Under the pieces are notes generated by a model. The model was not told the DNA's origin and made no database searches. It saw only the letters and a program-made list of their open reading frames with translations. The position numbers and the translations under genes were made by a program. A DNA stretch of 64,000 nt from Rhizophagus irregularis (lineage: Eukaryota; Glomeromycota; Glomeromycetes; Glomerales; Glomeraceae). The stretch spans positions 124,001 to 188,000 of the forward strand of contig NC_089443.1 of NCBI RefSeq assembly GCF_026210795.1, read 5' to 3'. Shown here piece by piece: positions 7,936-31,689 of the stretch (positions within the stretch are counted from its first letter, which is position 1; every line of letters begins with the position of its first letter).

Positions 7936-8616
7936 AAAAATGGTGCATTTCATCGGCGGCCAAAAAAAAACCCTCGAATGATCCCCCAAGTACAGTAGTA
8001 CCTTTTGTGAAAAAATTTCAGGATAATCTCTCTTTCTTTTCGTTCCTTTGTTTTCTCTTTTTCATTTTTTCACAATGGTTTTTTTCTTTTTTTTCTTCTT
8101 TCCCTTTATTCTTTTTCTTTGGGTATTGATATGAAAAAAAAATTATTATAAAAAGGTAAAAACTATTAAAACTGAACGCGTAATTATTTTTGACGCGTTA
8201 TATAAATATCAAAGATAGTTTAACATAACCCAGCGAGAGCAGAATATGTACCTGTCGTACGCCGAAATAAAAATAGACGTGCATATACAGTGGTCTGACT
8301 GTAATTGTTAATATGAATATATTTTTTTGAATAAAGTATACTGTTGATAACAAAAACTGTCAAAATGTTTTTCGGTATTAAAAAAAAAATTGAATAGAGA
8401 GATGTAGACATAAACATAATCGTGCGAATGTTTAACATGTCTAACAAACAATGATTTGATTGGATAAAAATTGCAAAGTCACGTGCCTAATAAATTCATG
8501 AATACGATATCAAACGATATCGTAACGATATCGTTATCTTTATTTATTTAATAAATCACGTTATCATAAATAAATATACCGAAAAGAATCATGGGATATT
8601 GTACTGTATAATAAAG
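7936..8616. other. Non-genic stretch with a polypyrimidine tract
   Basis: Positions about 8020-8125 are almost pure C/T on the plus strand. A small cluster of GATATC/ATATCGT motifs (three in about 35 bp) lies near 8505-8540, matching the motif of the 6.0 kb and 30.4 kb satellites. A 75-codon minus-strand frame at 8220-8447 has no domain and is judged spurious. Confidence 0.4.
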
Positions 8617-11600: not shown

Positions 11601-12184
11601 GTAGTTAAATTTTGAAAATATGGAGCAAAATCACCATCAAAAGATGGTAACTTATCTTTAGCCAATGCTTCATCAACGAATAGCTTTTCTTCTGAGATAT
11701 CAGAATCATGTCTTTCTTCATTATCTGACGACATTGTTTCATAATCTTCATCACTTTCTAAGGACATTATATAATCGCTTTCTGTTTCATTCTCTGATGA
11801 TGTTGAAATCATGTTGGTATCACCTTCTTCATTATTGCTTCATTGTTCTAAATCATCATCATTATCGTTTCATTGTTCTAAATGATCATTATCGCTTCGT
11901 TGTTCTAAATGATCATCATTGCTTCGTTGTTCTAAATCATCACCATTATCGCTTCGCTGTTCTATATGATCATCATCACTTCGTTGTTCTAAATCATCAT
12001 CTCCGTCGCCATATTCATTATACTCTTCGCCACTAATATTATCATCTTCAAAATCTTTTTGTACCATTTTTTCATTGTCATCATTATCCGATAATAAAAA
12101 TCTGTTGGGCAACCTTCTAAAATTATTACGGATACGAAAAGGTATTGCAGCAATATTCGCTTTTCGAGGTTTATTTCGTAACAT
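8617..12184 (-). CDS. Transposase-like protein with BAH-like modules (Tnp2-like), five exons, two in-frame TGA
   Basis: Exons (minus): 12184-11206, 11117-10127, 10046-9665, 9582-9225 and 9158-8617. All four introns are GT-AG, 66-88 nt, and in phase, giving 1084 codons. The N-terminus is basic, then has an acidic repeat (LEQRSDNDD-type units), then a conserved region with FWIYKHNISTNAYEDL-like spacing. Next comes a BAH-like segment (CGDFVYYYDNERKLGRLRAI) and a core with VYKLFLDIYYDDFGTFRNVY and ADLPQGNDMCGVLRHNANKG followed by CRTC, resembling fungal Tnp2/Transposase_21-type proteins. A second BAH-like segment lies in the last exon (HIGDVVTIHEKDSGECYAII). In-frame TGA codons at 11872-11870 and 11842-11840 replace the CGA arginine codon of the acidic repeat, which suggests C-to-T change at CpG. 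Translation from the ATG at 11812 would avoid both and give about 958 aa. The family assignment is from memory; terminal inverted repeats were not identified. Confidence 0.8.
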
Positions 12185-12289
12185 GGCTATGACAATAATT
12201 ATAATAAGGAATAATAAAATGAAATAAAATCATAAATTTAAAAAATGTCCATGCGCGTTTGTGTATTTAATTCATTAACTGCTTTTATA

Positions 12290-13265
12290 ATATTTTCAAT
12301 TGGATATCATAGTATCGTGACCGCAGCACATAAACGGAAATTTTGGGTTAACAAATTTCTTAACGGTTACATTAGTTCCTTGTCTGTGGTGCATTAACGG
12401 AAATTTTGGGCAATGATCTGGTTACATGTAAAGAAATTTTGTATGAAATCGTGACTGCAGGACATAAACGGAAATTTATATTACGAATTTCACGAAATTT
12501 CGAGAAAAAAAAATGTTAATGGTTACATTAGTTCTTGGATTACAGTACATTAATGGAAATCTTGGGGAAAATGATCTAAAATTGACGTGTTAACAACCAG
12601 TTACATGCAAGGAAATTTTGTATGAATATCGTGCGTGACTGCAGAACATAAACGGAAATTTAGATTACTAATTTCTTAAATTTTGGGAAAATCGATCAGA
12701 AAAAAATGTCAATGGTTACAATCGTTAGTTCTTTGTCCACAGTACATTTTGGTAAAATGATCTAAAATTGACGTGCAAAGAAATTTTGTATGAATATTGT
12801 GACCGCGGGACATAAACGGAAATTTGAATTGATCAGGAAATTTTCTTAATGGCTACATTAGTTCTTTACTTACAATGCATTGACGAAATTTTGAGGCAAT
12901 GATCTGAAGAGTTGACTTCTTTAACGGTTATATATAAAGGAATTTATATGAATATTGTGACCGCAAGATATAAGCGGAAATTTAGATCATCGAATTTTGG
13001 GATAATTGATCAGAAAAAAAATTCGTTAATAGTTAGTTACATTAACTGTTAATGAATTATATAATGAACAACATCGTAACTATAGAAATTTGGGTTAACA
13101 AAGCTCTTGATTGATGTTTTGACGATTACATGTAAAGAAATTTATATAGGCTGCTGGACATAATGGAAATTGGGTTAACAAAGCTTTTCTGAAAAATTGA
13201 CATTACATTTTAAGAATATCATGATCGCAGCACATTTAGACAAGACAAATGATCAGAAAAAAATT
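12290..13265. repeat. Left repeat array, forward orientation of the CATAAACGGAAATTT family
   Basis: Diverged copies of GACATAAACGGAAATTT and GCATTAACGGAAATTTTGGG recur about every 70-160 bp (near 12326, 12392, 12462, 12545, 12645, 12807, 12965 and 13155). They are interleaved with GGTTACATTAGTTC and TGTATGAATATCGTGA(CTGCAG)-like stretches. The same family lies in reverse orientation at 14.1-16.6 kb. Such arrays resemble the subterminal repeats of some large DNA transposons, but no terminal structure was confirmed. Confidence 0.8.
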
Positions 13266-13437
13266 GTTAGCAATTCGTGTTCCAGTTTATATGAAATTTT
13301 GATTTTTATGATTTTAAATTATTACGATCAATTATTATGATAAAATCACTAGTGGTGAGCTTTACGGATATATACAATTATAAAATTACATAAGATTTAT
13401 TTTTTTATTGAAATAAATTGAAAAGGAGGTGAATATA

Positions 13438-13620
13438 TCCCAGTAAAAAGTCCTGTACTGAATTCATATTAGGTTTGTATTGAATTTATACATGAGCCCG
13501 TTTGGTACGAAAAATTGGACCATAAATGGGATAAAATTAAAATACATATGGCCAAATTTTATACCGAATGGACTCATTTCATAATTGGCCTATATTTGGT
13601 ACAAGAACTTTTTACTGGGA
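13438..13620. mobile_element. 183-bp palindromic MITE flanked by TA
   Basis: The element begins TCCCAGTAAAAAGTCCTGTA and ends with its near reverse complement (TACAAGAACTTTTTACTGGGA). It is flanked by TA on both sides (13436-13437 and 13621-13622). The inverted similarity continues inward: GAGCCCGTTTGGTACGAAAA pairs with the right half, so the whole element can fold back. A TA target duplication and short size fit a Tc1/mariner-type non-autonomous element. No coding capacity. Confidence 0.75.
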
Positions 13621-13742
13621 TAGTAATATTTTGCGGTATTGTAATGAGATATAACTTCATATAATGGCAATATCAATTCTAACAAATAATTTTAAAGTGT
13701 TAAATATTTCAAATTATCACAAAATATTAAAGAATCAAATGA

Positions 13743-14017
13743 TCATACTTTTTTCACCATCCGAGCCCAGTCTCCCATGGTCTTCGCTCGGTTGTTACGA
13801 GACGGACGTTGCCGTTTCTTTTTAATGTTGGTTTGGCGAAGATCGTTCAATCGGGTTTGTTCTTTTATTAGATCGTCTAGCGAGATCAATATCGTATTAT
13901 CTATATATGAAAGAAATTATATGAATATTATCATACGTTATTTAATGAATTAATATATATATGAGGTATTTTTTTTTTTATACCTGTTTCTTCTCTACTA
14001 GGTTTGGGAGAGGACAT
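13743..14017 (-). CDS. Small two-exon gene, 63-aa basic protein
   Basis: Exon 1 is 14017-13984, exon 2 is 13900-13743, and the intron is 83 nt with GTATAA...ATATAG ends. The product starts MSSPKPSREETDNTILISLD, continues with DLIKEQTRLNDL and a strongly basic stretch (KKKRQRPSRNNRAK), and ends MGDWARMVKKV. The short leucine-spaced stretch could form a small coiled coil, and the basic part could bind nucleic acid. The gene sits alone between two inverted repeat arrays and beside a MITE. The stop overlaps a GTATGA, the same donor used in the transposase gene, so an additional 3' exon (now disrupted) is possible. Not recognised as a known family. Confidence 0.5.
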
Positions 14018-14139
14018 TTTCTTTCTAACTTTTTTTTATTAGAAATCTAAAAACTCTGATCTGAGATGTGGTATTTTTATATGTAACTGATAAGATATGG
14101 ACAGTCAAACTTTAAAAAAATATCAATTGAATTCTTTGG

Positions 14140-16590
14140 GAAAAAAGTACAAAGTAATTTTTTTTATAATATTACGACTGTGATATCATGACTGCACTAC
14201 ATAAAAGGAAATTTGGGTCAACAACTTGTAAAAGTTTTTTTTTTAAAATTTCATTACATAATTCCGAGATAGAGAATTAATGTAACAAATTCTGTCAATG
14301 CGCTGCAGATAAAAATCAATGTAATCATTAACAATTTTTCCGATCAATTATTGATCTAAATTTCTATTTATTTATTGCGACCACGATATTCATTCCAAAT
14401 TTTTCAGATCATTACCCTAGATTCCACCAATGTGCTGCAGATAAAGATCTTTTGCAGATAAAGAATCAACAGAACTGTTGACAAAAATTTTTTTCTGATC
14501 AGTTTTTTGATTTAAATTTTTGTTCATGTCCTGCGATCACCTTACATGTAACCGCAATTTTTCCATTGCCCAAAATTCATCAATTTACTGTATACATTGC
14601 ACTAATATTGCACTGTTAAATATTTAATATAATATTTTTTCTATTAAGATTAAAAGAATAGTTAATAATTTATTATCAATCCTAATTATTAAAATAAATA
14701 TATAATATATTAAACATATAAAAAATGTACTCTATTTAAGTATTAGGACAGCATAATATAGTACGTACAGTATAATTCTTCAACTCTGATTATGTAACCA
14801 TTAACAAATTTTTTCTCCTGATCAATTATCCCGAAAATCCGTTTATATCCTGCGATCACGATATTCATGTCAAATTTTTCAGATTACCCCTGAATTCTAT
14901 CAATGCGCTGCAGATAAAAAATCAATGTAATCATTAACAATTTTTTCCGATCAATTATTGATCTAAATTTCTATTTATTTATTGCGACTACGATATTCAT
15001 TCCAAATTTTTCAGATCATTACCCTAGATTCCACCAATGTGCTGCAGATAAAGATCTTTTGCAGATAAAGAATCAACAGAACTGTTGACAAAAATTTTTT
15101 TCTGATCAGTTTTTTGATCTAAATTTTTGTTCATGTCCTGCGATCACCTTACATGTAACCGCAATTTCCCATTGCCCAAAATTCATCAATTTACTGTATA
15201 CATTGCACTAATATTGCACTGTTAAATATTTAATATAATATTTTTTCTATTAAGATTAAAAGAATAGTTTATAATTTATTATCAATCCTAATTATTAAAA
15301 TAAATATATAATATATTAAACATATAAAAAATGTACTCTATTTAAGTATTAGGACAGCATAATATAGTACGTACAGTATAATTCTTCAACCCTGATTATG
15401 TAACCATTAACAAATTTTACAATTATCCCAAAAATCCGTTTATGTCCTGCGATCACGATATTCATGTCAAATTTTTCAGATTACCCCTGAATTCTATCAA
15501 TGCGCTGCAGATAAAAAATCAATGTAACCATTGATAATTTTTTCCGATCAATTATTGACCTAAATTTCTATTTATTTATTGCGACTACGATATTCATTCC
15601 AAATTTTTCAGATCATTACCCTAGATTCCACCAATGTGCTGCAGATAAAGATCTTTTGTAGATAAAGAATCAACAGAACTGTTGACAAATATTTTTCCGA
15701 TCAATTTTTTGATCTAAATTTCTGTTTATGTCCTGCGATCACGATATTTCTGTCAAATTTTTCAGATTACCCCTGAATTCTATCAATGCGCTGCAGATAA
15801 AAAATCAATGTGTAACCATTAATAATTTTATTATCCCCAAATCTGAATCTAAATTTCCTTTTATGTCCTGCGATCACCTTACATGTAACCGCAATTTTTC
15901 CATTGCCCAAAATTTCATCAATGTACTGTAAACATTGCATTAATATTGCACTGTTAAATATTTAATATAATATTTTTTCTATTAAGATTAAAAGAATAGT
16001 TAATAATTTATTATCAATCCTAATTATTAAAATAAATATATAATATATTAAACATATGAAAAAAAGTACTCTATTTAAGTATTAGGGTAGCATAATATAG
16101 TAGTACGTACAGTATAATTCTTCAACCCTGATTATGTAACCATTAACAAATTTTTTCTTTTTCCTGAACAAATTATCCCGAAAATCCGTTTATGTCCTGC
16201 GATCACGATATTCATATATAGCTTCTTTACTTGTAACCGTTAATATTGCTCGAAATTACCATTAATGTTCTGCGGACAAAGAGCTAATATACCCATTAAG
16301 GATTTTCCCGATCAATTATTCCAATAATTTGAAAATTTTGTTGGCCAAATTTCCGTTTATGTCCTACGGTTACGATACTCATATATAATTTCTTTACATG
16401 TAACCGTTAAGACATCAAATTTTCCCAAAATTTTCGTCATAAAGAATCGATGTAACCATTAACAAATTCTTCCGATCAACTATCCAAGATTTAATGTAAC
16501 CATGAACGTTTTTTTCGAGAATGCTAACCCAATTTCCTTTTATGTGCTGCGGTTACGATGTAATTTTTTCTTAATATTAGGAGAAATCTC
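14140..16590. repeat. Right repeat array, reverse orientation, with a ~600-bp higher-order unit
   Basis: The motif AAATTTCCGTTTATGTCCTG followed by CGATCACGATATTCAT recurs near 14845, 15435, 15718, 15852, 16190, 16340 and 16530. It is the reverse complement of the 12.3-13.3 kb family. Superimposed is a higher-order repeat. A block starting CCACCAATGTGCTGCAGATA begins at about 14427, 15032 and 15628, a period of about 600 bp, and includes an AT-rich stretch with TTAAATATTTAATATAATAT. Neighbouring copies are very similar, so the higher-order amplification is recent relative to the divergence of the basic unit. Confidence 0.85.
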
Positions 16591-16694
16591 TATAAATAAA
16601 TAAAGATGATGCTGTATTCGTTTCGTCAGGAATCACCTATTTCTTTACGTTGCTACTAGCACAATACCAATAAGTACCACCTTGTTTGTTTATC

Positions 16695-18261
16695 ATGACT
16701 AAACGCAGAGGAGTAACAGGAAAAGGTAATAAAATTATATTTTTGATTTGAAATTTTATATAGTAATTGCGCCTAATACTATTATAATGATACCTAAAAG
16801 ACAAGGCAACAAAAGCTGCAAAAACTACCAAAACTATTCGTACATATGTTGCCAACTCTTCACGTGATTATAATAAGGAAAGAGATGAAAGGAGAGAGGA
16901 AGGAAGTGAACATGAACAAGATAATTTACATGGACAAGATGTAGATATTGGAGAAGGTAATAATAGACAAGATGATGATATTGAAAGAATTATTATGGGT
17001 AAATACCTTATAATAATTGTTTTATTATTCAATTGAAATGATATTTCTGCGAATTTATTTAAAAATAAATTTACTTCGTTATAATGAAGATATGCTTCCA
17101 GAGCAAGAAGAAAGAAATATTGAAAAAGAAAGAAGAGAAAATGAGAAGAAAGAGATGGAGAGGAGAGATAAAGAGAGAAGAAAGAAAGAAAGAAGAGAAA
17201 AAGAAAGAAGAGAAAAAGAGAGAGAAAAAGAGAAGAGAGAGGGATAGGAGAGAGCAAGATAAAGAACAAGAAGAAAATGAAAATGATGAAAGCGGTAAAA
17301 CATAAAATCTGAACATAATTAATGAATATAATTTTATTCTCATTTAATATTACTTCTAGAGAGTGAAGAAGAAATTCCGGTTCAGTTTGGCGCAATGACC
17401 AATCAATTGCAAATTTGCAATTGGTTGGTCTTACATCCAAGTGTACTACATCTGGCAAACAAAATGCTTGATGCCTCGACGAAGCAGCCATCAACAAATT
17501 TGCCACTAACCACCTCGACTTCGTCATCATCTGACAACGTAAAGTCCATTTCTTATTTTGGTTGTTACATTCTTACCAATTAAGAACAATCGTTATTACA
17601 CAGCAGAATTACTGATGTATTATGTATTATTGATATTATTACTATTTAGGATAATTATCGTCTTATTGACGAAGAAATGAAATGCCTTTTTTTGCGAACT
17701 AGAAATCCGCCTGATCATGCGTTTGATAAAATAACACAAAAAATTTTTGGGCATGATGCTTATCAAAGCGTGGCGAAGTCAATTAACGAACGATATCGTA
17801 AATCATTTTCCGACTATCGATATCAATTGAAAAATGTACTTTCAACATTAGTAAAAGAATTTCGACAAATTGTAGAAAGGTGATCGATACGTTCATATCG
17901 TTATGTTGTTTTTACTACAATGATTTAATGATTTAAACTTTTTTTCTATTAAAGTGAATATACGGAAAGTTCAGATCCTACCGACGAGGAAGTAAACAAC
18001 TTCATATCACGTGAGGTGGTTTTAAAGAGAATCTTAAGCCGATACGTTTCAGCCATCGATTTTACAAAATTATCGGAAACTTCACTAGATAAATTAATAG
18101 AATTCTCCAGAAAATGCTTCAAAATAGTCTGGGTTGAAACTGAAAGCGCAAATATCAAAGAAAAGGTTAAGGAGTTAGATGTTATTACAGAAGATCTAGA
18201 AATTCCTTCCTGTAGCGGAAGAAACATTGCTAGCTCTTTAAAACTCCATCTTTTTTCATAA
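16695..18261 (+). CDS. FLRTR-family member A, six exons, with a stop in a Lys/Glu-rich exon
   Basis: Exons are 16695-16725, 16801-16998, 17090-17294, 17360-17538, 17650-17879 and 17955-18261. Splice sites are GT-AG and phases agree except in exon 3. The N-terminus is basic then acidic. Exon 3 is a purine-rich KERREKERREKE stretch in which the exon-2 frame meets a TAG at 17245-17247, while the downstream exons need the next frame, so a one-base slip in the low-complexity tract is likely (real or sequence error). Exons 5-6 hold the family core: EEMKCLFLRTRNPPDHAF, then INERYRKSFSDYRYQLKNVL. It shares LFLRTR with members B and C. No known domain is recognised. The charged tract and coiled-coil-like core suggest a nuclear or scaffold role, but this is speculation. 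Confidence 0.6.
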
Positions 18262-18700
18262 ATACAGTACATATCACATAAAAGACCGTAATAACATTGA
18301 TATGTTTTTTATTCCTTTATTATATTAAAGATTACAATATATCATATTGTTTTAAAAGTTTATAGAATGTGACTTCACAAGTTAATAAGTTAATGTCGTA
18401 ATAACTTCACTAACACAATTTGACGCTAAAATATAACTATTAATCTGTTATTTATGTCATTCTCTAAAAATTATTTTTTTATCGTAACCTTGACCTTATA
18501 ATCATCAATTATCATAACTGTAATCGTTTTCTCATTTAATTTTTGATAAAAAAAAAATTAACAATCTCTTAACGCAGTAACAATTAACATGTATATATAC
18601 ATACATAACAGGTCTTACAGTGATCGTACAAACCTTATTAGGGAATAGCACAATCAATAATCCAGTAATTTAGTAATAAAGAGTAATCAATAAATATCCC
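18262..18700. other. Non-genic AT-rich stretch
   Basis: 3' flank of member A. Nothing beyond AT-rich sequence was found. Confidence 0.4.
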
Positions 18701-18707
18701 TTAAACA

Positions 18708-18795
18708 GATAATCGCATGTGGTAGAGTAGTTTGAGATAGGAAATCCGCATCGCAGCGGGTCTCTGGTTCGATTACTATGTATACCTTATGGCGA
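18708..18795 (+). repeat. tRNA-like sequence, possible SINE head
   Basis: TGTGGTAGAGTAGTTTG (about 18718) resembles an RNA polymerase III A box, and GGTTCGATTAC (18767-18777) a B box, with a spacing of about 45 nt. A clean tRNA cloverleaf could not be drawn. Just downstream, GCGAAAATTTCCC occurs twice (near 18820 and 18848), as in the unrelated part of a tRNA-derived SINE. This could instead be a decayed tRNA gene. Confidence 0.35.
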
Positions 18796-19055
18796 TTATT
18801 ATCGTAGAGTTCTAGCGGGCGAAAATTTCCCCATATCCTCCTGATAGGCGAAAATTTCCCAGTTAAACCTTTACAAATATTTTTTTTTATTATTTACTGG
18901 CAAATAAAACATATTTTACACGATATATTATTAATACGAATTTGATTATTTTATGTATTTATTTCAATATTACAAAAATTTCTTTTATTAAAAAAAAATG
19001 AGAATAGTTCAAAATGGTTTCAAAAAAAAAAAAATAATGAACTACTAGATTTCTT

Positions 19056-19531
19056 TTACTAAAAAATGAGAACAATTCATTAATTATAAAAATAAAAATC
19101 ATTAAAAATTGCACAATACCTAAAAAATTACTAACTTGATTATGTTTAATAAAGTACTCATCCATGCTTTTAAAAGATGTCGGTGACAATTGTGATGATG
19201 ATGATGATGATGGTGGCTGTGGTGGAGATGACAGAGACGATGTTGATTGTGCTAAATAACTCTTTAATTCAAGCTTATATATCTCTTCTTCCTGACTTGA
19301 GATTTGATTTGAAAAAATATCGATCCACTTCAATAGATTTGCGTTTTCACGCTCAGTTTTGTCTAGCTTGGAAATCACTTGTTCACCGGCTGTCTCAACA
19401 GCTTTTTGGAAATCCTGGAGCTGTATCTGGAGATCAGATATTTCAATTTCTTTTTGTTTAAATTTTTTATATTGTCGTTTTTTTTGTCTACGCCAGGCCG
19501 TTTTCCTAGAATGTAATGATGGTTTTCCCAT
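19056..19531 (-). CDS. Coiled-coil protein with basic N-terminus (bZIP-like layout), about 132 aa
   Basis: ATG at 19531. The frame reads MGKPSLHSRKTAWRRQKKRQ, a basic region, then a heptad-like stretch (EIEISDLQIQLQDFQKAVE) running to about residue 85. A Ser/Pro-rich linker follows, then MDEYFIKHNQ. At Q132 a donor (GTTAGT, intron 19135-19059) can splice to an acceptor CATTTTTTAG, where the next codon is TAA. Without splicing the frame continues to 190 codons through a phenylalanine-rich tail that looks like intron or UTR. Basic region plus coiled coil resembles a bZIP protein, but the canonical Asn/Arg signature is not clear. It lies antisense to its neighbours inside the FLRTR-family cluster. 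Confidence 0.6.
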
Positions 19532-19700
19532 TATTAATGAAAAGAAAATTACCTTTTTTTTTTATCGAAAAAAGATGTTATTTATTATTGGGATTCAACA
19601 ATTTTGGAAATTATCCAATTGTACTGTCGTCAAAATTAGTTTAGTACAACGTAAAGATCTCGTGTATAATTCCTGTTTCAGTAACTACAGTAGTTCAGAG

Positions 19701-19721
19701 TTTTTTCCCGAAGGGAAAAAA
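19701..19721. promoter_or_regulatory. Perfect hairpin upstream of the coiled-coil gene
   Basis: TTTTTTCCC, GAA, GGGAAAAAA forms a perfect 9-bp stem with a 3-nt loop, 170 bp upstream of the ATG at 19531. Function unknown; it may be the core of an element end or a protein-binding site. Confidence 0.35.
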
Positions 19722-20138
19722 CCATCCCATAAATTATACCCAGGAGCGTGTGACTTATGGCCACTGTATTATCACGTGTATGATTATTATTATTTAAAGA
19801 CTACATAAAAATTTGATAAATCCATAGAAGCCGCAATATTATATCTCGAAGAGCTTGGAAAATCACAAGTAACTGTGAAAAGGCTTCCGTAAAATGAGAA
19901 AAATTTGTCGTGCGCATCTTATAAATTCTCAATACAATAAAACCCAAAGATGATGAGATTTTAAGTGCGCTCTCATTCTCCTCCGTTAGTATTTTCCTTA
20001 ATTTGTCGATTCTTTAGATTTACATTTGGCTTAATCTTCTCTTTACTATTTTTATATTTAATGTACCTTTCTACTAATTTCTTCCAAAGGACATTACGCA
20101 AATTATTATAAATTTGTAACACGTCAGCGTATCCTTAA

Positions 20139-20312
20139 AAAGAATTCATCGATCCACACAATTCAGGCAGCATTACCCAAGTTCAAATGGCACGTTTGCT
20201 TTTTGAGTCATACAAATCACTACCGAAGTGGATTAGAAAGATAATTTTCGGCGAATTGAAGCCATTATTTAGGAACGATGTACTTGGAACGATTCGTCAA
20301 ATCAAATTTTGA
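20139..20312 (+). pseudogene. FLRTR-family relic (single exon fragment)
   Basis: The frame reads KEFIDPHNSGSITQVQMARL, then LFESYKSLPKWIRKIIFGEL and KPLF before diverging to a TGA. This aligns with member B (KFTDRDANISYNQ..., SIPKWLRIIVINELKSLF) and member C (SSLPKWVLDIIYVELRALF). The FLRTR core that should follow is lost and upstream exons are absent. It is a truncated copy lying between members A and B. Confidence 0.65.
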
Positions 20313-22059
20313 AAAATGATCAAATTTCCAGATATTTTAATGGTAACGATAATCCAGCTTCAACAAGCTTTTTTCAATATCATCCCTAATAAATAAAATG
20401 TTAGCGTTTTTATGATATTAGGTAGTACTATAATAAAAAAATTATCTTTTATCACATTTTATTTACATTGGAGTGAAGAAGCGCAATTATGCAAGACGGG
20501 TCACAATTTTTTTTTATGATGTAAACGGTCGAATATCAAGCACGGAAAGATGATAAAATTCAACCACCAAATGTAATTATTAAATATTAAGAACGAACAA
20601 ATTAATCGTGGATTGGCGTAGATGGATAAATAATTAGCCGAAAAGGATAAACATTTAGGAAGAGTAATGATCTACATGATGTAATATTTATTGAATGATT
20701 GACAAGGAACCAATAGGATAAATAGAGTCGATCAATTGCGGCTTAGCAATCTTTAACAATAAGAACGATAAGAAAGAATAATTATAAGCCACAAAAGATA
20801 GATTATAAGCAAAACACATAAAGCGAATTAAAAGAACATATAAAATAATGTCAGAAAGATTAAAGAACACAAAATAATGTAAAAGATAATATAAAAAAAT
20901 AGTATAAAGATGGAACGTAAAAGATAATATATTAAAAAGAATATATATAAAAAGATAGCATATTAAAAGATAGCGTATTTAAAATATAGATAGTATATTA
21001 GAAAGATAGTTCAAAGATAATATGTAAAAAGAACATAAAAGATAGTATATAGATAGAATAGAAAGTAGCATAAAAATTGTATATATAGAGAGCGGAATTC
21101 AAGGTAATTCCTTAGTTCTCATCCACAGAACTCAATAAAAATATAAGTTTTATTTTTTAATTATTTGTTAGTAAAGTTTAATGTTAATTAAAGGTAATAG
21201 GTTCGCCCTAAACTTTAATTAATGTTCGCTTAATTAATTTTAATTAAACAAATGGAAATTTTAAGATGAATTAAATATAAGTTTTGAAAAGTAATAATTC
21301 GTAGCGAGAGCTATCGAAGTTTGAAATTAAAGGTAAAAGTGGATATAATTTGGGGAAAATTTAGAGAAGTAAATTTTATTTTATGTCGTCCAACGTTTTA
21401 TATTACTAACGCTATTTATGTCGTGAACCAAGAATGTTGTTGTATGTTGTTCGTTGTTTATGTTGTTTGATAATTATGCTGTTCGTTTATTTGTTCGTTC
21501 GTTCGTTTACTCGTTTGTTCGACCATGGGAATGCCCGTTCGATGTGGCAACTCTGTAAATTGATGACAGAGGGAATTGGGGGATCTCAATGATAATAATA
21601 ATATAATAAACTTATAATATACTATAATATAAAATAAAAAAAAAATATGCTATAAATTGTTCAGTTAAACATCATGATAGTTTCTATTTTTTCGTATAAG
21701 TATTATACTTAAATTATTGATTTCCGATCATGTGTTCCAACATTCAGTTGCTAATATCAAAATAATATTTTGATGATCTTAAAAAATTTTGTTAAAAAGA
21801 CGATATACTTATTTTGGTCATGTAGAAAATAATCAAAATTATATAACGATTGTTACCATCATAAAAAGTTATTGTGGCGAAGCAAAATTATAATTATACT
21901 GTTTATTTCCACCTCCTGAATTTTCTACTAACATAGTAATTTCATCTGAAGGATTCATGTGTTAAAATCCATTTCAGTTTGTTGATCCATTTTATCTTTC
22001 CCCTTTTCCCAAAATTTAATTTTTCGTTCTCACTACTAAGCATATTTAGTATTCATGTC
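20313..22059. other. AT-rich non-genic stretch with degenerate AAAGATAGTATA repeats and a GTTC run
   Basis: Between about 20840 and 21080, AAAGATAGTATA-like units recur in a degenerate way. At 21481-21521 a GTTC/GTTT simple repeat is present. A TATATATA box near 21083 followed by AATAAA near 21136 gives a faint long-terminal-repeat-like appearance (see rejected items). No gene is supportable. Confidence 0.4.
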
Positions 22060-22711
22060 ATATTAAGGTAAGTTGCGCTCTCTGTGTTTATGAGAGAGTT
22101 TAACTTTAGATGCTTGAGAGGGTTCAAGGAACCCGTAGTGTTATTAGGAAACCGATATCAATACAATTTTTTTTTGCAAAAAAGTTTTTTTGCTAATAGG
22201 TGTATAACCACGATATGGAATTTTATTCGATCACAAAGAAAAAAAAGAAAAATTGAAAAAAGATTCTACTCGATCATGATTTAATTACAATATCCGTAAT
22301 CATATGATGAGATTAATTTCGAAAAAAAGAAAAGTCTAATTATTGACTCAATCTAATCTATTTAATTTCGAAAAAGAAAAAAAAAAATTCTTATTTCCAT
22401 TGTTCTTATTGTACCGTATGATTTTTTTAAGGAAAAAAAGTAATATAATCACGATATGAAAAAATTACTTGTTCATGATTTAATCACAATATCCATCATT
22501 ATATTAAATAATTAATCAGATTTTTTTTCCCTTAAAAAAATCTGTATTACACGATGTAATAGATCAATGGCAAAAAATAATTTTTATTTTCGAAATTAAC
22601 CATATTTTTACTCGATCATGATGTGGTAAGATTAAAATTATTTAAATAAAAAAAAAAATTGAAAAAATTTTTGATCCACATTTTTTAACTCATAGAAACC
22701 ATTATCAAAAA
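22060..22711 (+). repeat. Duplicated 5' flank of family member B
   Basis: This flank shares blocks in the same order with 26165-26826, upstream of member C. These are GTAAGTTG(C/T)(G/T)CTCTCTGT, then GAGA(G/A)GGTTCAAGGAA, then GTAGTGTTAT, then TTTTTTTGC(A/G)AAAAAGTTTTTTT, then ATAACCACGATAT, and close to the gene a CTCGATCATGATGTGGTAAGAT block. The last block also precedes the relic at 30144. Gene and upstream region were therefore duplicated together. Confidence 0.75.
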
Positions 22712-24440
22712 ATGTCTTCTCAAGATCGTAATAAGCCTGTACAAGAAAAAGAAAGTCATAGACGGAGCTCTCTTATTAAGCATTAAGAACCTTCGCAACC
22801 GCCTTCGCAATCGCCTTCGCAATCGCAATCTCAACCTCAATGGTCACAACAATATTTACCTCCATATCCCTATCAACGTTTTTCGTCACGGCAACATTCT
22901 CCATACCCCTTGTATCCGCATCATTCCTCAGTACAACAACAGTCTCCATACCCCTCGTCACAACAACAGTCTCCATACCCCTTTCCATATCCTTCGTATT
23001 CCTCACAATACTTGCAGCATCCTTCAACACAATTACTTTCTGATGAAGAAATTGGTCTGTATTATTTAATAATATTCGGTATTTGAAGAAATCTTCAATA
23101 ACAGAACAATAACTTGTAACGTTATTTCTATCATATAGATAATTTACTCGCTACACTATTTCTACAAATCGAGGACATCATGTCCAGAGCCGTTAATCCT
23201 GTTTATGTCCGACAATCTATTGCAGAACGCTTTGCCATGACGCTCTCTGAACATTTACATGATCAAATCGAGCAGATGATCCACAGAGGCAAGCGTTACG
23301 CTAGCGAAGAACGAAGCCGCACTTCCTCATCTTCTACACCTGTTATGACCCCAACTCTCACACGGACGGATTCAATGTAACAAATATGACTTTTTCATAT
23401 TTATAATCTTATAATCTTCATATTAACATAATGTTTTTTAAAATTAGGGATACCTTGGAAGAAATTCCTCTTATAACTCAAAGTAGTACTAGTACTTCTT
23501 CTCTTGGTATTGCTATACCTTCTGTTACATCTTCAACTCTCCCTCGGATGAATCCAATGTAACAAATATATTTTTTTCATATTTATCATCTTGTAATCTT
23601 CATATAACAATGTTTTCTTTAAAAATTAGGGATGACATGGAAGAAGAACTCTTAAGCTCAGGCTTACAGCTGCCAAAAATCTATCTCGAGAATCGAAGAT
23701 ATCCAACATCGATTCGCCCTCATGCAAATTCTCCTGAAAAGTTCACAGATCGTGATGCAAATATATCATATAACCAAAAGAGAATTTCTAATATTATATC
23801 GATGCAAAACTCTATCCCAAAGTGGTTAAGAATAATAGTGATTAACGAATTAAAATCATTATTCCTAAGAACAAGAAACTTAGATAAAAGCAACAATAAT
23901 CAAATTATAGAAGATTTCTTAGCGTCATTGTTACCAACTTTTATGAACGATCATCCTGACATATTACATATTGTAGCAAAAAGTTTTCGTAAAACCTGGT
24001 CGTACTGGAGAAATACATTATGGGATAACATCAAGCTTAGATACGAAACTTATCAAAAACGTAAAGAAAAAGACGAAAGTCTTGATTTCAAACCGTACTT
24101 AAAAGGTCGTCATATTGAAGAAATATTCAACCTTTGGTTGAAATTTTCGGACAAGCCGATATCTCAAGAAAACGAAAATTCGCTTAAAAATTTAATTCTT
24201 TTTGGATTCCACTGTTTAGAAATTTATAACAGTGATGCACGTGAGCGTTTTTTTACTCACACCGGAAACCTTTATACGGTTAATAATATTTTTAACAATT
24301 TATCTGGATATAATATTGGTTCTTTGATTGATTTATCAAAGTATGAAATTGAAAATAATGATGATGATGATTCAAATTCCAGCTCTGAGGATGAACCAAA
24401 GCCGAAATCAAAGAAATCTACTAAAAAGCGAAAAAAATAA
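22712..24440 (+). CDS. FLRTR-family member B, four exons, stop in exon 1
   Basis: Exons are 22712-23054, 23139-23376, 23448-23558 and 23630-24440, giving 501 codons in one phase. Exon 1 starts MSSQDRNKPVQEKESHRR. A TAA (22784-22786) stands where member C has the Trp codon of 'LIKHW'. The exon then continues as an open Gln/Ser/Pro/Tyr-rich stretch. Exon 2 holds a helical segment (VRQSIAERFAMTLSEHLH). Exons 3 and the start of 4 are tandem copies with near-identical introns. Exon 4 has the core IPKWLRIIVINELKSLFLRT, FRKTWSYWRNTLWDNIKLRY, a C-terminal FFTHTGNLYTV motif and an acidic then Lys-rich tail (KSKKSTKKRKK), a likely nuclear signal. Translation could start at the ATG at 23180, or the copy may be a recent pseudogene. 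Confidence 0.6.
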
Positions 24441-25118
24441 TATATATTATGTAGATTTTTTTCAATTTAAATTTTTAGCGTAGAAAAGTAAAGTGTCTGG
24501 TCGTGTGTTGAAGTTTGAGAGGTTCGTATGTAAATTTATAAAACACGTGTCTAGATGTGCTGTTAATCCCACAATATGTCTAAAAAATCCCTTTTATGAA
24601 GAAAGTGCTGTGCAAATTTTTCTTTTTTTTTTAAAAAAAAAAAATTCTATGTAAAAAACCATCATTTTAAAAACCAGGTCAAATGATTATAATTATCATT
24701 GTTACTACAACAATAATTTTTTTCTTTGTATCTATATATATATATATATATATATATTTTCACTTTCACAATCTAAAAGAAGACGGGTAGATAGTATATT
24801 CTTTATCATTTTTATTTCTATTGTATAACATTATTGCCAAAATAAAACTTCAAATTTGCAACCAAAATTAACGAACATTCATTCACATTCTTTAACTGAA
24901 TCGAACACGGCGATATCATTTAGATTTTTTTTGGTACAATTATGAAACATCACGGCGATATCATTTAGATAATTTTTTTACAATTACAAACCGATATCAC
25001 GAAGATATCATGCAGTGTTTTTTTAAAATAAATCAAATCATTTTTATTAGTATATTGGATTTTATAATACAATAATAAAATATTAAATTGAGTTAATCGT
25101 GAAGGTTATTTTTAAAAA
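24441..25118. other. Non-genic stretch with a TA run and GATATC motifs
   Basis: A (TA)n run lies at about 24731-24757. CACGGCGATATCATTTAGAT occurs twice (near 24905 and 24951), followed by CGATATCACGAAGATATCATG near 24994, the same motif class as the satellites at 6.0 and 30.4 kb. No gene seen. Confidence 0.5.
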
Positions 25119-25614
25119 CAGCAACAGCAACATCAACATCAACTTCACCAACAACATCTACAACAACATCATCAGCAATATCAACGGCAACAACAATCCA
25201 TTTATAAACCTCAATCACAATATTATCCTGAATTTGGACGTAATTACAGACCATTTCGATTGCAATATCCTTATGAGGATGAACAACTACCTCGTTTACA
25301 ATATTGCCCAGGTGTCCACATTTTGAAGAGAAGACAGACAACAATCTCAATCAACCAGACAAGCAGAAATCATTAATTTGGAAGAGGAGCAATGACGCAG
25401 CACATGAAAAATTTTTCTCGTTTAATGGAAGCCTCTACACAGTTAACTGTGATTTTCCAAGTACTTCTGGTTATAATGTCGCGACATCGATAAATTTATC
25501 AAAATACGACGTGATCTTTCAATATGCACTTCCGATGTTGATTCTGACATCACTGATCCATCAAATTACTGACTTCCATATTGAACAATTTTTTTTTATA
25601 TTTTCTGCAATATG
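25119..25614 (+). pseudogene. FLRTR-family relic with N-terminal Gln/His tract joined to the C-terminal motif
   Basis: After an acceptor-like AAAAACAG, the frame reads QQQQHQHQLHQQHLQQHHQQ, then a Tyr/Pro/Arg-rich stretch (YPEFGRNYRPFRLQYPYEDE), and stops at a TAA. In another frame from about 25395 it resumes as DAAHEKFFSFNGSLYTVNCD, then SGYNVATSINLSKYDV. That matches the C-terminus of member B (FFTHTGNLYTV, SGYNIGSLIDLSKYEI). The middle, including the LFLRTR core, is missing. It is an internally deleted copy between members B and C. Confidence 0.7.
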
Positions 25615-26164
25615 AATTTAACATTATCACCATATCAATTTGGCATTCAAGATGATATTCAGAGGGCATGTGATTGTGATTCCGTATCGTTTCCGGTGTT
25701 ACCTGGATTTTTTCACTGATCGTGATACCAGAGATATAAGCTGTAGATGTATCCGACTCCATAGACCAGCTCAAGAATACCAAGTCATCGAAGGAAAGGG
25801 AAATGGATGCTTTCTTGGATAAGGCGCATAAGAAAAAGCATCAGTGATGAAATGAGAGAAGAGAAGCTTCAGCATGAATCATCTACTCAGATATTTCTAA
25901 CTCGCAGAACCGTTGCCTCTTTCTTTTTAGGATGTTCCTTTTCCATACATGATTCCCATTCTTTGATTTCTACTTTGCTTCTTCCTCGGAGATCGGTTGA
26001 GACAGAACTGAAATAATCAATGTAGAGCGAGTTTGATAAAAATCAAATTGTAGAACAAGGGCTAATACGTGAATTGTCTTCATCCATACCGCCTGAAGAT
26101 ACCGAAACTATCTTGTTTCTAACTTTGGCTTAGTTCAAATCACTCGCTCTCTATTCGTGTTTAT
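25615..26164. other. Decayed stretch between family copies
   Basis: Short overlapping open frames (25640-25822, 25807-26016 on plus) without splice signals or recognisable domains. Possibly further remains of a duplicated copy. Confidence 0.3.
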
Positions 26165-26826
26165 ATTAAAGTAAGTTGTTCTCTGTTTATAGGAGAGGTT
26201 AATTATTAATTATACGACTTAAAATGTTTGAGAAGGTTCAAGGAAAAGATAACTCGTAGTGTTATGATATCAATGCAAACAACTTTTTTTGCAGAAAAAG
26301 TTTTTTTCGGTAATAGGTATAACCACGATATAGAATTTTTAAAAAAAAGAAAAAAATTGAAAAAAAGATTAATTTTTACTCGATAATCACAATGTCCGTC
26401 ATTATATTAATCAAATTTTTTTCCTTAGAAAATCTATTGAGATCAATGGTAAAAAAGAAACTTATTTTCGAAATTAATCGTAACAATGTGAGAAAAATAT
26501 TAATTTTACTTGGCCATGATTTAATCACAATATCCATCATTATATTAATCATATTTTTTTTTCCTTAAAAAAATCTGTATCATATGATGTAATAAGATCA
26601 ATGGCAAAAAGAATTTTTTTTCTTTTCGTAATTAGCCATATTAATCATAGATATAATTACGATGCAAGAAAAAGATTAATTTTTTTCGATCATGATGTGG
26701 TAAGATCAACGCAAAAAAAAGGGGATAAAAAAAATTTTTTTTTTTATTCAATTAATTATTTCTTTTTTTTTTTTATATTTAGATATTTGTTTTTTTTTTG
26801 ACTTGCATTTTTTAACTATCATTAAA
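26165..26826 (+). repeat. Duplicated 5' flank of family member C
   Basis: Collinear with the flank of member B at 22060-22711 (same ordered blocks, including the ACGATAT and TCATGATGTGGTAAGATCAA stretches). Poly-A and poly-T runs have expanded here (for example around 26730-26800). Confidence 0.75.
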
Positions 26827-28821
26827 ATGTCTTCTCAAGATTTTGATAAAGAACAAGGAATTTGTAAAAAAGGCTCGCTTATTAAACATTGGCAGCCATC
26901 GCAACCGCAATATCAACAACCTCAGTCTCAACAACCGCAACAATCTCAACCCTAAACTCTATTTCAGTGGCCGCGACAACCTCAACAATTTCAACAATCT
27001 CAACCTCAACAATTTCAATGGCCGCAACCACCTCAATCTCAATCTCAATGGCCTCAACAACCTCAACAATCTCAACCTCAACAATCTCAACCTCAACAAT
27101 TTCAATGGCCGCAACCACCTCAATCTCAATGGCCTCAACAACCTCAACAACCTCAACAATCTCAACCTCAACAATTTCAATGGCCGCAACCACCTCAATC
27201 TCAATGGCCTCAACAACTTCAACAATCTCAACCTCAACAATTTCAATGGCCGCAACCACCTCAATCTCAATGGCCTCAACAACCTCAACAACCCCAACAA
27301 CCTCTATCTCAATAGGCTCGACAACCTCAACAACCTCTACCTCAATGGTCTCAACAACCTCAACGACCTCAACAAAATCAGCAACGTCAATGGCCACATC
27401 ATGAATATCAATGGTCGCAATCACCTTCTCAACCTCAATTACCACCTCAACCAATCGATGAAGAAAAAATAGGTGACCTATGATTGAAATTCATTATTCT
27501 TTCTTTTTGTGATATGAATAGTTCACTTACCTTGATATTTAATAATTGTAGACAAAATGCTGAAAGAGGAGTTCTTGAGGATTGAGGAGATAATAAATAT
27601 ATCTTCAGATCCCTATAAAACTAAGAAGAAAATAGCGGATGAATTCGGCCTAATTTTACCCGAGTATGTCAATTTTATGACCGAGAAATACAGGAAAAGT
27701 CAAAGTCCCATATCAACAATAACATCACTGGAATCTTCCCCGGTGACTTCACCACATTCTCCGCTACGTTCTCCGCCTTTGAAGAATCGCGCTCCAATGT
27801 AAATATATATATAGTAAATCTGTAAGATTTATAATTCACATGTTCTGAGCCCATTTATTTTTATTATAGGGATAATTTCGAACGACAACTCATAAATAAC
27901 AATTTGGAGTTACCGTCTCAATATTTTACTAAAGAACGTCATTACCCCAGAAGTCCTTTCCCAAGACCCGACGCAAATGTTCTAGATAAATATACGGAAC
28001 CTAAAACTAGTCGCGAATATAGTCAAAAACAGATGAGTGAAATATTAGAAAATAATTATAGTTCTCTCCCAAAATGGGTCTTAGATATCATTTACGTTGA
28101 ATTAAGAGCATTATTCCTTCGTACTCGGCACCTTGACCATTCTACTAGAAATTTAATGATAGAAGATATAATTAGTAAATTATTTCCACATTTTGCTAAG
28201 AAGAAAGAAAACAAACAAAAAATTGGTTTTATGTGCAAACGTTTTCAAAAAGTTTTTGATGGATGGAGGAGCAAATTATGGTCGAATATAGTTTTCGCAT
28301 ATCAGAATAGTTGCACTAACGATAATATTTCCCAGTTAAAATCCAAAGTTTCAGTTTCAACTATATTTCGTCAGTGGTTGACATGTGTTTCAAATGAACT
28401 ATCAGAAGAAATGGAAAAAGCGCTCCAAAATGTTATTATTTACGGGATTAGTTGTTTAAGTGAGGAGGTGGATGATGACAAGACAGCTCGTCGCAACTTT
28501 TTTATGGCAAATACAGATTTATACACAATAAATTTGGACTTTGCTTGTACTGATAAAATAGATGTTACAAGATCAATGGAGCTGTCTCATTATTACATAA
28601 GTGCTGCAAGGTCATTTCCCGAAGATGATGACGAAAAGGATGATGATGATGAAAGAGAGCAAAGAAAGCATAAAAAAAAGGAACTAAGAAGATTGCAAAT
28701 TAAGGAGGCTAGTGAGAAGCGTTATTATAAATTTTATATAATATATTTTTATTATATATCATTTTACATTTTTATCACGTCCTTTATTTTTATATTTCTC
28801 CAAATGGAGAGGACATTGTAG
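26827..28821 (+). CDS. FLRTR-family member C, three exons, Gln/Pro/Trp repeat N-terminus with in-frame stops
   Basis: Exons are 26827-27472, 27552-27798 and 27870-28821, all in phase. Exon 1 starts MSSQDFDKEQGICKKGSLIK, then enters a tandem repeat of about 20-27 residues built on QPQQFQWPQPPQSQWPQQ. Two in-frame stops occur: TAA at 26953-26955, and TAG at 27313-27315 where the repeat predicts a Trp codon. The CTAAAC...TTTCAG around the first stop resembles a branch point and acceptor, so splicing might remove it. Exon 3 carries HYPRSPFPRPDANV, LPKWVLDIIYVELRALFLRT, FQKVFDGWRSKLWSNIVFAY and FFMANTDLYTINLDF, then an acidic/Lys tail. The last ~30 codons are hydrophobic and probably lie beyond the original end. 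Function unknown. Confidence 0.65.
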
Positions 28822-28937
28822 CTGGAGCTGGTGGTGACGATAATACTTTAAGGTTCTGGAAGATTTTTAATACTCTAAGAACAAAAGGGATAGAAAATAA
28901 ATATTCGTGGAAACTTGTTGGTCTTATAATGTTATAG
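28797..28937 (+). pseudogene. WD40 C-terminal fragment of a Cdc20/Cdh1 (fizzy-related) gene
   Basis: In the frame next to that of member C, the sequence reads SPNGEDIVAGAGGDDNTLRF then WKIF, with a further tail to a TAG at 28935-28937. The conserved last blade of Cdc20/Cdh1 proteins reads like SPDG-x-I-V-x-GAGDETLRFW-x-V-F. The match is close apart from one inserted residue. No other blades are present upstream, so this is an isolated 3' fragment overlapping the end of member C by 25 bases. Similarity is from family knowledge, not a search. Confidence 0.55.
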
Positions 28938-29979
28938 CATTTGGTTGTTGGCTTTGATTTTTTTTATTCGATCAATAGTTTATAGTAAATATTTAGCATA
29001 GAGGAGCTATAATTTAGTAATTATACTTAACATTTACATTATTAATACTTTTATTATTAACACTTTTAATCATAAATAAAGTTCATATCAATAATTTTGC
29101 TTAATATATAATTTATTCTTTGCTGGAATGTATTGAATTGTGTCCGAATAGTAAACATATCATGCAAATAATCGTCTACCGATCGTGGATCAATTTACCG
29201 ATAAATCGTCACGAATTATTATTAAAGTCGTTCTGATTTTTAACCATGTCGATAAAACTTAGTAAATGTATTGAATAGAATAATGTCTCTAATACATTTC
29301 AAATACTGTATATTAAAATATACATTCGTAAATAAAATGAGACTACTTTTACTGGACAAGGCAATTTTTTCAAGATATCGTATGATACTTTTATGATATC
29401 ATAAATGTACTTAAAATTCGAATTTTAATATGGTTGTAAAGACATTTTACATAATAAAAAATCATTTTGAAAACCACGTTAGAACCCCATTTCCGATGCT
29501 TACCAGAACATCATAAAATATGTCATCCTGACAATGTATTTAAAACCATTTTATGATAATTTTCACAATTTTGTAAAGATTGCATTGACAGAACATGATT
29601 AATATATTTTAAAATGCCAATAAATTATTTTATTATACGGCTAAATAATAATACATAAACTACTAGTATAATTTACAAAATAGAAAAATTCCGTCAAAGC
29701 AATCATGAAAACCTGCTTAAAAAAAAAGAAACGAACTGTTAGTAATAGTACATTAAAAAAAAAAAGATTTTAAAAAAAAAATGTTATAAAATACCCACCG
29801 AAATCTACACCCCTGAGCTCCAGCAGTTGAAATCCTATGCTTTGAACCTGTCTAAAAAAAAGAACAAGTGTTAGTACATTTCGTTAAAGTAGTAATTAAA
29901 AAAACTCTTCTCTTACCAAATTCTCAATATCTAAAATCATATGGAAAATACATCAAAGTATATCAAAAAAAATATATTT
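28938..29979. other. Non-genic AT-rich stretch
   Basis: No gene. Poly-A runs at 29720-29790 and 29855-29870, and a few GATATC motifs near 29375-29402. Confidence 0.4.
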
Positions 29980-30143
29980 TTTCTTTCAAAATTGACCACC
30001 ATACTAATCATACTCAATCATGATGTGGTAAGATCAATGCAAAAATAAGGAATGAAAGAATTGATTTATAAAAAATGAGAAGAAAAAAAAATTTTTTGAC
30101 TCACATTTTAACCTGTAGAATCATCATCAAACAAGTTTTAAAA

Positions 30144-30280
30144 ATGTCTTCTTAATATCGTAATAAACCTATACAAGAACAAGAAATTTGTAAAAAGAAT
30201 TCTCTTATTAAAATTTGGAAGCCTTTGCAACCGCAACTCTGTGGCGGCGACATACGGAAGTAGTCAAAGTCCCATATTAG
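30144..30280 (+). pseudogene. FLRTR-family relic: first exon joined to part of exon 2
   Basis: ATG TCT TCT is followed by a stop, then YRNKPIQEQEICKKNSLIKI and WKPLQPQ, matching the first exons of members B and C. It then jumps to a short stretch resembling the end of exon 2 of member C (IRK-SQSPI versus YRKSQSPISTI). It lacks everything downstream. Its upstream sequence shares the TCATGATGTGGTAAGATCAA block with members B and C. Confidence 0.65.
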
Positions 30281-30430
30281 TATATTTTTATGTAATCTTC
30301 ATTGCTTAATCGTTTAAAATATCAGAATTTTATTTTAATAATATGGCAGCACGTTATACATATAAAAGTTGTAAAGTTTAATATTTGCGGTATTGCAGAT
30401 GAGTTGCGATACCACAAATGAGTTGCGGCA

Positions 30431-30910
30431 ATGAAGTGACGATATCAAATCAATATCGTAAATGCATCTTTTTTTATCCCCTGAATTACCAATATCGTAA
30501 CGATATCATGACTATACCAATCAGATATTTTTTTTAAATAAATGTTGTCACGATATCTCGGCGATAAATTGTGGGATGAAGTGACGATATCAAATCAATA
30601 TCGTAAATGCATCTTTTTTTATCCTGAATTACCAATATCGTAACGATATCAAGACTATACCAATCAGATATTTTTTTAAATAAATATTGTCACGATATCT
30701 CGGCGATAAATTGTGGGATGAAGTGACGATATCAAATCAATATCGCATCCTTTTTTTTGAAATTACCAACATCGTAATGATATCAAGGCTGTGCCGATTT
30801 GATATTCTTTTGAATAGATATCGTCACGATATTTTCGCGATAAATTATGGTGATGAAGTAACGATATCAAATCAACATTATAACAATATCATCACAGAAA
30901 TTGATACCAT
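30431..30910. repeat. GATATC-rich tandem repeat, about 135-145 bp, four copies
   Basis: ATGAAGTGACGATATCAAAT begins units at about 30431, 30576, 30718 and 30853. Each holds ACCAATATCGTAACGATATC and TCACGATATCTCGGCGATAA. The first two copies are almost identical. Motif class as at 6.0-6.6 kb, but a different unit. Confidence 0.85.
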
Positions 30911-31689
30911 TATGACATGAAATTTATATCGTACCTGTATCAATTCAACATCGCTCATATTTTCAAGGTTTCTGTAAAGTATTGTTATACAGGCAAAAAT
31001 TGGCAAAAAAATATACGCTTTTTCACTATTGGTATACATAGAAATATACAAAAAAAATAAAAATTATTATTATTAAATATTACTTTTTAAGTAACAAAAT
31101 TATAGATAATAGGAGGGCAATTATTATTACAAAGTTTTGTATCTATAGCTTTAAAAGTAAGTTCAGGATGATAAGAATAAATTTTTAGCATAGAAGATAT
31201 GACCTTAATTATAATTGTCTGGGGTCCTATTGTTAGTATATATTATATAAATTTAGAAACATCAGCCACAATTTCAAATCACGTAAATCAGTCATGTCCA
31301 GTAATATTATATTATTCAAAAAAAGTAAATAATCATGAGACTATCATGCCATCTCTTTTATAATCAGTAACTATAGAAACAATATTTATGTTGATTATGA
31401 TATAATTTTTATATTCTGACTATAGTAACATACTATAACTAGAAAATTTATATAAAAGGCCTTTCCATCCACAAATTTTTTTAAAAAAAATTCTCTCTTC
31501 CTCTCTCCACAGCTGAGTAGCCAAAAAGACTATCAGTTTTTCTTTCTCTTCAGCGAAGTAAACAAAAAAAAGCTATTCTTTATTTTATTTCCACTTTATA
31601 TTTCCTATTTATTTTTAGCAATGACTTAAATATAAACCAAAGAAACAAAGCTTTTTTTGCAGAAGTAAACATAACCTAAGCAAAGAGAG
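30911..31689. other. Non-genic AT-rich stretch
   Basis: No gene or clear repeat found. Confidence 0.35.

Follow-up and report, generated by a model that had tools for sequence, protein, structure and literature searches.

The 64,000-nucleotide stretch of Rhizophagus irregularis DNA analysed here (the window) carries three related genes, designated A, B and C, and three truncated copies near 20.1, 25.1 and 30.1 kb. These sequences were found to be genes and gene wrecks inside one mobile element, and not a local family of fungal genes. A, B and C probably encode accessory proteins resembling TNPA, with a putative role in DNA binding, in a group of related CACTA-like transposons. A first-pass annotation of the window had read the same genes as a local family undergoing rapid birth and death; its observation was largely right and its interpretation is replaced here.

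Alignment of the window element with a copy at C12 was collinear, with gaps and diverged stretches, and stopped at both ends of the element; alignment with a copy at C2, which spans 39.5 kb, had the same right end as its stop point. The ends are imperfect inverted repeats, CTTTGCTGAAATCTTC... and ...GGTTTCTGTAAAG, the 3' end of the element reading ...CAAGGTTTCTGTAAAG-3'. Genome-wide searches were made in the source genome (146.7 Mb in 32 contigs): the left end matched over the full query (1-152) at 16 places, and the right end at 18, with 93% identity or more over 110 or more of the 113 bp. By hand, 15 pairs of a left and a right end could be formed, the two ends of each pair being on one strand and 23.6-39.5 kb apart; these include the oldest-looking pair, at C15:3.14 Mb, where each end gives a partial match, and exclude a more diverged pair on C5 (75% and 73%). 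The cluster described as local in the first-pass annotation recurs on other contigs, with the same gene set, as one element.

Matching 2-bp repeats flanked 11 of the 12 copies for which both flanks were read (TA in nine, TT in two). The window copy is the exception, with GT against TA: it has TA at 5990-5991 and at 30980-30981, and a 2-bp filler, GT, at 5992-5993 on the left. This copy splits a small repeat, and at the corresponding point all three uninterrupted relatives examined read AAGTA-TC, which places TA on both sides of the window element and identifies the GT on the left as extra. The small repeat itself has inverted ends (AGGACCCC..., window 5813-5847 and 31194-31228) and occurs at 40 places in the genome.

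The gene next to the left end codes for a transposase. With small alignments of seven (the transposase and six relatives from the same genome), three and four rows, hhalign matched the transposase to PF02992-type proteins of this genome (Transposase_21, CACTA/EnSpm) with a score of 94.4% (E-value 8e-8; 20 shuffles gave at most 2.2%) and to Plavaka proteins of this genome with a score of 39.3% (shuffles at most 1.1%). The register with the PF02992-type proteins was kept at the GNMP/ANLP and CRTC/CRFC words, the CRTC of the transposase, a C(2)C motif, aligning with the CRFC of a PF02992-type protein. The transposase of the C2 copy is interrupted, at the point matching window 9367, by DNA that ends in a related terminus, TTCAGTAAAGTA (L034:9120-10000; C2:3.687-3.688 Mb).

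The element ends in CTTT..AAAG with a 2-bp duplication, where EnSpm sensu stricto has CAC..GTG and 3 bp; strict EnSpm is ruled out because both the ends and the duplication length differ. For CMC/CMCT elements, PMC12730594 gives termini of the form 5'-CA..TG-3' in most cases and duplications of 2 to 5 bp. The CT..AG termini found here depart from that form, and the 2-bp TA/TT duplications fall inside that range. On these comparisons the element is best placed within the CMCT group, as a CACTA-like type distinct from strict EnSpm and from Plavaka. Plavaka, the first candidate for the transposase, was rejected: the Pfam Plavaka model PF18759 had no match in the transposase open reading frames (ORFs) scanned, the Plavaka places compared lie elsewhere in the genome, the nearest at 82 kb (24 x 11 coordinates), and the hhalign link is weak.

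An A-type gene is the usual neighbour of this transposase clade throughout the genome. The A core gave 137 matches, in keeping with the many paralogues that the first-pass annotation would have counted as support. The list of transposase places is a lower bound, with at least 115 separate places drawn from the 117 candidates scored among 446; an A-type neighbour was present at 95 of the 115. Conversely, a transposase place lay within 20 kb of 99 of 135 A-type places, while 4.0 were expected under uniform placement. The two genes were divergent in 81 of these 99 pairs, on the same strand in 17 and convergent in one, at a median distance of 5.25 kb (quartiles 4.7 and 6.6 kb). At L063 (C4:2.721-2.7255 Mb) a broken A-type gene, with no transposase in the 4.5 kb read, may represent a solo or degraded copy. 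In a diverged element (L060:3879-4256, minus strand; C16:4.419 Mb) a Myb/SANT ORF (PF13837, E-value 9e-11) lies between the transposase and the A-type gene.

Both ends of the element carry repeated copies of one octamer, ACGATATC. In the 2.6 kb of the left end it was counted 12 times, against a mean of 0.185 and a maximum of 1 in 200 shuffles counted in the same way; these matches represent nine separate sites, three of which are palindromic (ACGATATCGT) and are each counted twice. In the 0.7 kb of the right end (30280-30981 scanned) it was counted nine times (shuffle mean 0.115, maximum 2; 200 shuffles). There were no copies in the coding part of the transposase, none between the transposase and A, three in 16691-30279 (shuffle maximum 4) and none in the 38.8 kb of the window beyond the element. 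The C12 copy gave 13 matches in the left end, six in the right end, two inside and one outside, in 40 kb.

The left and right repeat units differ, yet both contain ACGATATC. Two diverged elements, at C10:5.11 and C24:2.39 Mb, retain the TTTCTGTAAAG terminus at their right ends and carry five and six copies of ACGATATC in 1.2 and 1.1 kb, respectively, within other repeat units; their A-type cores are 41% and 36% identical to that of window A, and the C24 element has no transposase place within 20 kb on the lower-bound list. That the octamer is common to different repeat units is a stronger point than its copy number. In six other stretches (L058-L062 and L064), the ends of which were not located, it occurs 0 or 1 times each.

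The octamer arrays are laid out as TNPA sites are in CACTA elements; transposition of Spm needs both TNPD and TNPA, the latter of which recognises repeats in the subterminal regions (PMC2613891). Two features by which a partner protein may be recognised were observed: the element encodes A beside the transposase, and repeated subterminal sites are present in both ends, in the window copy and in the C12 copy. In the proposed model the A-type protein, with B and C as duplicated versions, would work like the TNPA of maize Spm. Its helical core and basic termini would bind the subterminal sites bearing ACGATATC in both ends and would join the ends for the transposase; it may also regulate the promoters of the element. 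The predicted build of the A-type protein is a basic N-terminus (AT-hook-like in two relatives, which read KGRPKGSKKK and KGRPLGSK), a low-complexity middle part that is often acidic, and a helical core. B, which has a lysine-rich tail, would have arisen by duplication of the partner gene within an ancestral element, and C and the relics look like later duplicates, decaying in most copies.

The homology of A, B and C, claimed in the first-pass annotation, was upheld. Over 249 columns the cores of B and C share 34% identity (BLASTP E-value 3.7e-39), and their helical exons also match (E-value 1e-8). Pairwise BLASTP of A against B and C gave a weak match confined to the LFLRTR stretch (about 1e-3 to 1e-4); comparison of a profile of seven A-type proteins with one of four B-type proteins of this genome gave a probability of 95.6% (E-value 1.2e-8, 157 columns; 30 column shuffles at most 0.6%), which makes A, B and C one family over most of the core. 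The exon layout, taken to be common to all three, agrees between B and C and differs in A, which combines a WLV helix exon and a basic/charged N-terminus with a core divided between two exons; the low-complexity exon of A (about 17.1-17.3 kb) is perhaps out of frame in the window copy.

The three truncated copies are real, that at 20.1 kb consisting of two opposed pieces, and the reported duplication of the regions upstream of B, C and the 30.1 kb relic was borne out by four aligned pairs of segments: 22465-22606 with 26506-26642 (85%), 22130-22224 with 26251-26339, 22572-22632 with 29967-30034, and 22708-22802 with 30140-30234. The relics at 20.1 and 25.1 kb recur with B at a fixed spacing in other copies, and these duplications are therefore older than the spread of the element. 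B-type cores were found beyond the family of the window element at three places (C4:4.10, C5:3.106 and C2:4.977 Mb), with a fragment at C15:1.09 Mb; in the 7.5-kb stretches read on C4 and C2, B-type, A-type and transposase genes stand in a row on one strand. The presence of B-type genes in diverged elements implies that the A/B duplication is older than the family of the window element. Local birth and death of a host family is not upheld: the copies ride in a transposon, and the duplications behind B and the relics at 20.1 and 25.1 kb predate its spread.

Neither B nor C is intact in the window as read, on account of stops in their N-terminal exons: an in-frame TAA at 22784 in the Q/P/S-rich exon of B, and TAA at 26953 and TAG at 27313 in the low-complexity exon of C. 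A search with the B core found 12 places matching in full length at 96-100% identity, of which the window is one, besides several that are broken. Of the 14 B copies examined (L001-L014), 8 (L003-L006, L008-L010 and L012) have a first exon that is rich in Q/P/S, free of stops and in frame with the downstream anchor; an extra copy on C14 (L015, L016), outside these 14, has a stop in the first exon. C is well preserved only in the window copy, in its C2 sister, which has stops, and in an old copy (C15:3.147 Mb); C6 holds a fragment, and the other copies of the element contain decayed pieces of C.

Several results weigh against a TNPA-like function. Because they lie in tandem repeats, the copies of the octamer cannot be counted as independent. 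The uniform null for the A-transposase association is generous, since transposons cluster, but the shared order and distance of the two genes do not follow from such clustering. On the lower-bound list, 36 of the 135 A-type places have no transposase place within 20 kb; two of these were accounted for, C8:4048520 by a second transposase query and C10:4544037 by reading of the DNA, where a divergent transposase adjoins an A-type gene with a 411-amino-acid open frame. No scanned library names the transposase or the A/B/C family, and no Pfam model, PF02992 included, was above cut-off for the transposase ORFs scanned or for its relatives. The GRP word is missing from window A, and no AT-hook model matched the one AT-hook-like N-terminus scanned. 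From an alignment of five rows, AlphaFold built a helical B-core model of only moderate quality (predicted local distance difference test, pLDDT, 63.9; predicted template modelling score, pTM, 0.53), for which Foldseek found no match at an E-value of 0.001 or below in PDB or BFVD. B-type genes are known in few lineages. Finally, the variation among the 12 B cores is consistent with neutrality (26 of the changes are nonsynonymous and 14 synonymous, where chance would give 12.0 synonymous; P 0.30); no selection is visible on B since the recent spread of the element, which counts against any strong claim of present function.

This neutral variation, together with the stops in window B and C, the decay of C in other elements and the recurrence of the relics in decayed form in many copies, could be due to B, C and the relics being functionless passengers that hitch-hike in the element, with A as the sole working partner. 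Such an explanation, compatible with a TNPA-like role for A, is possible though on balance unlikely: all 12 full-length B cores are free of stops, the first exon is clean in the eight B copies noted above, and B-type frames are open at the three diverged places outside the family of the window element, with A-type and transposase genes alongside in both of those that were read.

A strong rival, or an addition, to the TNPA-like reading is that the A-type and B-type proteins act in the manner of VANC, as sequence-specific anti-silencing factors that would bind the repeats of the element and remove or block cytosine methylation, with little part in cutting. The targets of VANC are rapidly diverging noncoding tandem repeats (PMC10398659), and the element described here has arrays of repeats at each end as well as between its two divergent genes. 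The same source states that the TnpA of Spm activates Spm and correlates with demethylation, and this dual behaviour indicates that anti-silencing and end-binding roles can coexist. As an explanation in its own right, anti-silencing may apply but we consider it improbable: ACGATATC is common to elements whose A-type cores share no more than 36-41% identity with that of window A, which fits a site of end recognition better than fast-escaping targets.

Repressor forms are present in other transposons, and B and C might likewise be antagonists of A, altered paralogues by which the element represses its own transposition. Their N-termini are Q/P-rich and not basic, and with a homologous core they could associate with A, or occupy the same sites, and yet not activate; the same pattern of N-terminus and core is equally compatible with an activator role, and we regard antagonism as quite unlikely. 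That a host gene family multiplied locally and was later swept up by transposons is very improbable: the 36 A-type places unpaired within 20 kb would suit it, but the transposase list against which they were scored is a lower bound, the C10:4.54 Mb and C8:4.05 Mb places do have a transposase, and among the other A-type loci read only the broken one at C4:2.72 Mb (4.5 kb read) lacks it.

The A/B/C family is missing from the family libraries scanned, and the earlier statement that it has no name holds for the ORFs scanned against Pfam and NCBIfam. No Pfam, NCBIfam or PDB sequence match was above cut-off for the A, B, C, transposase or relative ORFs scanned, the Myb/SANT ORF of the diverged element aside; matches below cut-off were taken as chance (Myb_DNA-bind_3 0.15, Arc_C 0.09, DUF3884 0.006, Lin-15B 0.003, CagZ 0.0002). 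No description of this accessory family was found in the literature searched, as judged from titles and the openings of abstracts. Scans of IMG/VR, within reach of close relatives only, found no relative of the transposase (0 pattern matches) or of the B core (three pattern matches, all unrelated). As to the roles suggested in the first-pass annotation, secretion is unsupported; a nuclear function is plausible from the basic tails and from the AT-hook-like N-termini of two relatives; and conflict is conceivable only between the element and host silencing, or among the paralogues of the element.

Table 1. Positions of the element, its genes, relics and repeats in the window.
Feature	Position	Strand	Remarks
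Whole mobile element	5994-30979 (24,986 bp)		Delimited by alignment stops against other copies, pairable ends and empty-site comparison
Left terminal inverted repeat, CTTTGCTGAAATCTTCAAATTTG	5994-6016	+	15 of the first 19 bases agree with the opposite end, by eye
Left subterminal region	5994-8600		Repeats of about 88 bp; 12 strand-wise ACGATATC matches
Transposase gene	8617-12229	-	Probable exons in ORFs 11870-12229, 11180-11839, 10108-11142, 9638-10093, 9169-9582 and 8617-9168
Repeats separating the divergent transposase and A genes	12300-16560		Tandem units of about 600 bp; a word like TTTCCGTTTATGTCCTGCGATCACGATATTCAT in inverted copies
Gene A	16695-18261	+	Core exons 17650-17880 and 17953-18261
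ORF of 200 amino acids	18959-19561	-	Basic, then coiled-coil in appearance
Relic 1, B-like, two opposed pieces	19802-20098; 20139-20270	-; +	C-terminal part; middle part
Gene B	22712-24440	+	Q/P/S-rich exon, helical exon 23138-23380, small exon present twice, core 23628-24440
Relic 2	25116-25534	+	Q/H-rich N-terminus and C-terminal FF...LYTVN piece
Gene C	26827-28821	+	Q/P-rich exon with two stops, helical exon 27536-27799, core 27871-28821
Relic 3	29967-30234	+	Upstream region and first codons only
Right subterminal region	30280-30979		Repeats of about 145 bp; nine copies of ACGATATC
Right terminal inverted repeat, reverse complement CTTTACAGAAACCTTGAAAATATGAG	30954-30979	-	Inner limit approximate

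The small exon of gene B is duplicated in tandem (23352-23463 and 23534-23645, 83% alike). The 200-amino-acid ORF is more than 97% alike in DNA in several copies of the element and had no family above cut-off; it is perhaps a further gene of the element. Outside the element, long ORFs are found at window 60167-62204 (minus strand) and 45030-48707 (plus strand).

Among known systems, the CACTA/EnSpm elements with TNPD and TNPA (maize Spm/En, Antirrhinum Tam1, soybean Tgmt*) resemble the window element in having a CACTA-like transposase, terminal inverted repeats that are short and imperfect, subterminal repeat arrays arranged asymmetrically, a second protein beside the transposase and a large size (20.5 kb for Tgmt* and 17 kb for Tam1; PMC2613891). 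In contrast to them, the window element starts with CTTT and not CACTA, makes 2-bp TA/TT and not 3-bp duplications, and has separate divergent genes, with three paralogues of the second gene and relics in one lineage; its second protein, which had no Pfam match above cut-off, is likened to TNPA by its presumed role and not by sequence. The fungal Plavaka and ESTA elements of the CMCT clade would share a related transposase core, as suggested by the weak hhalign match to Plavaka (39%), but the termini of the window element differ from TGT..ACA and CATCA..TGATG, ESTA being compared by description only. The VANDAL transposases belong to the Mutator-like superfamily, different from that of the window element, and VANC too is likened by presumed role and not by sequence. 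What VANC of Arabidopsis VANDAL shares with the present system is a transposon-encoded accessory protein together with noncoding tandem repeat arrays (PMC10398659). Like the window element, Plavaka can have 2-bp duplications, and ESTA has TA (PMC12730594).

Two-thirds of the transposable elements of R. irregularis are said to be unclassified (PMC11075540). The family described here now has ends, a target duplication, a transposase and a partner gene, with more than 100 transposase places in this genome, and annotators can relabel as "transposon partner gene" a set of apparent orphans that would otherwise pass for "lineage-specific, possibly secreted". The partner gene may also serve as a fungal counterpart to TNPA that is open to test, its candidate binding sites being named. 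A wider proposal, which we put forward tentatively and with more doubt than belief, is that a new, unnamed and fast-diversifying family of TNPA-like DNA-binding proteins defines a CACTA-like clade in arbuscular mycorrhizal fungi, one lineage of which amplified the partner gene into three paralogues and several wrecks within one 25-kb element. If this were true, the element would harbour an internal arms race over its own end-recognition sites, either of an activator against derived repressors or in escape from host methylation.

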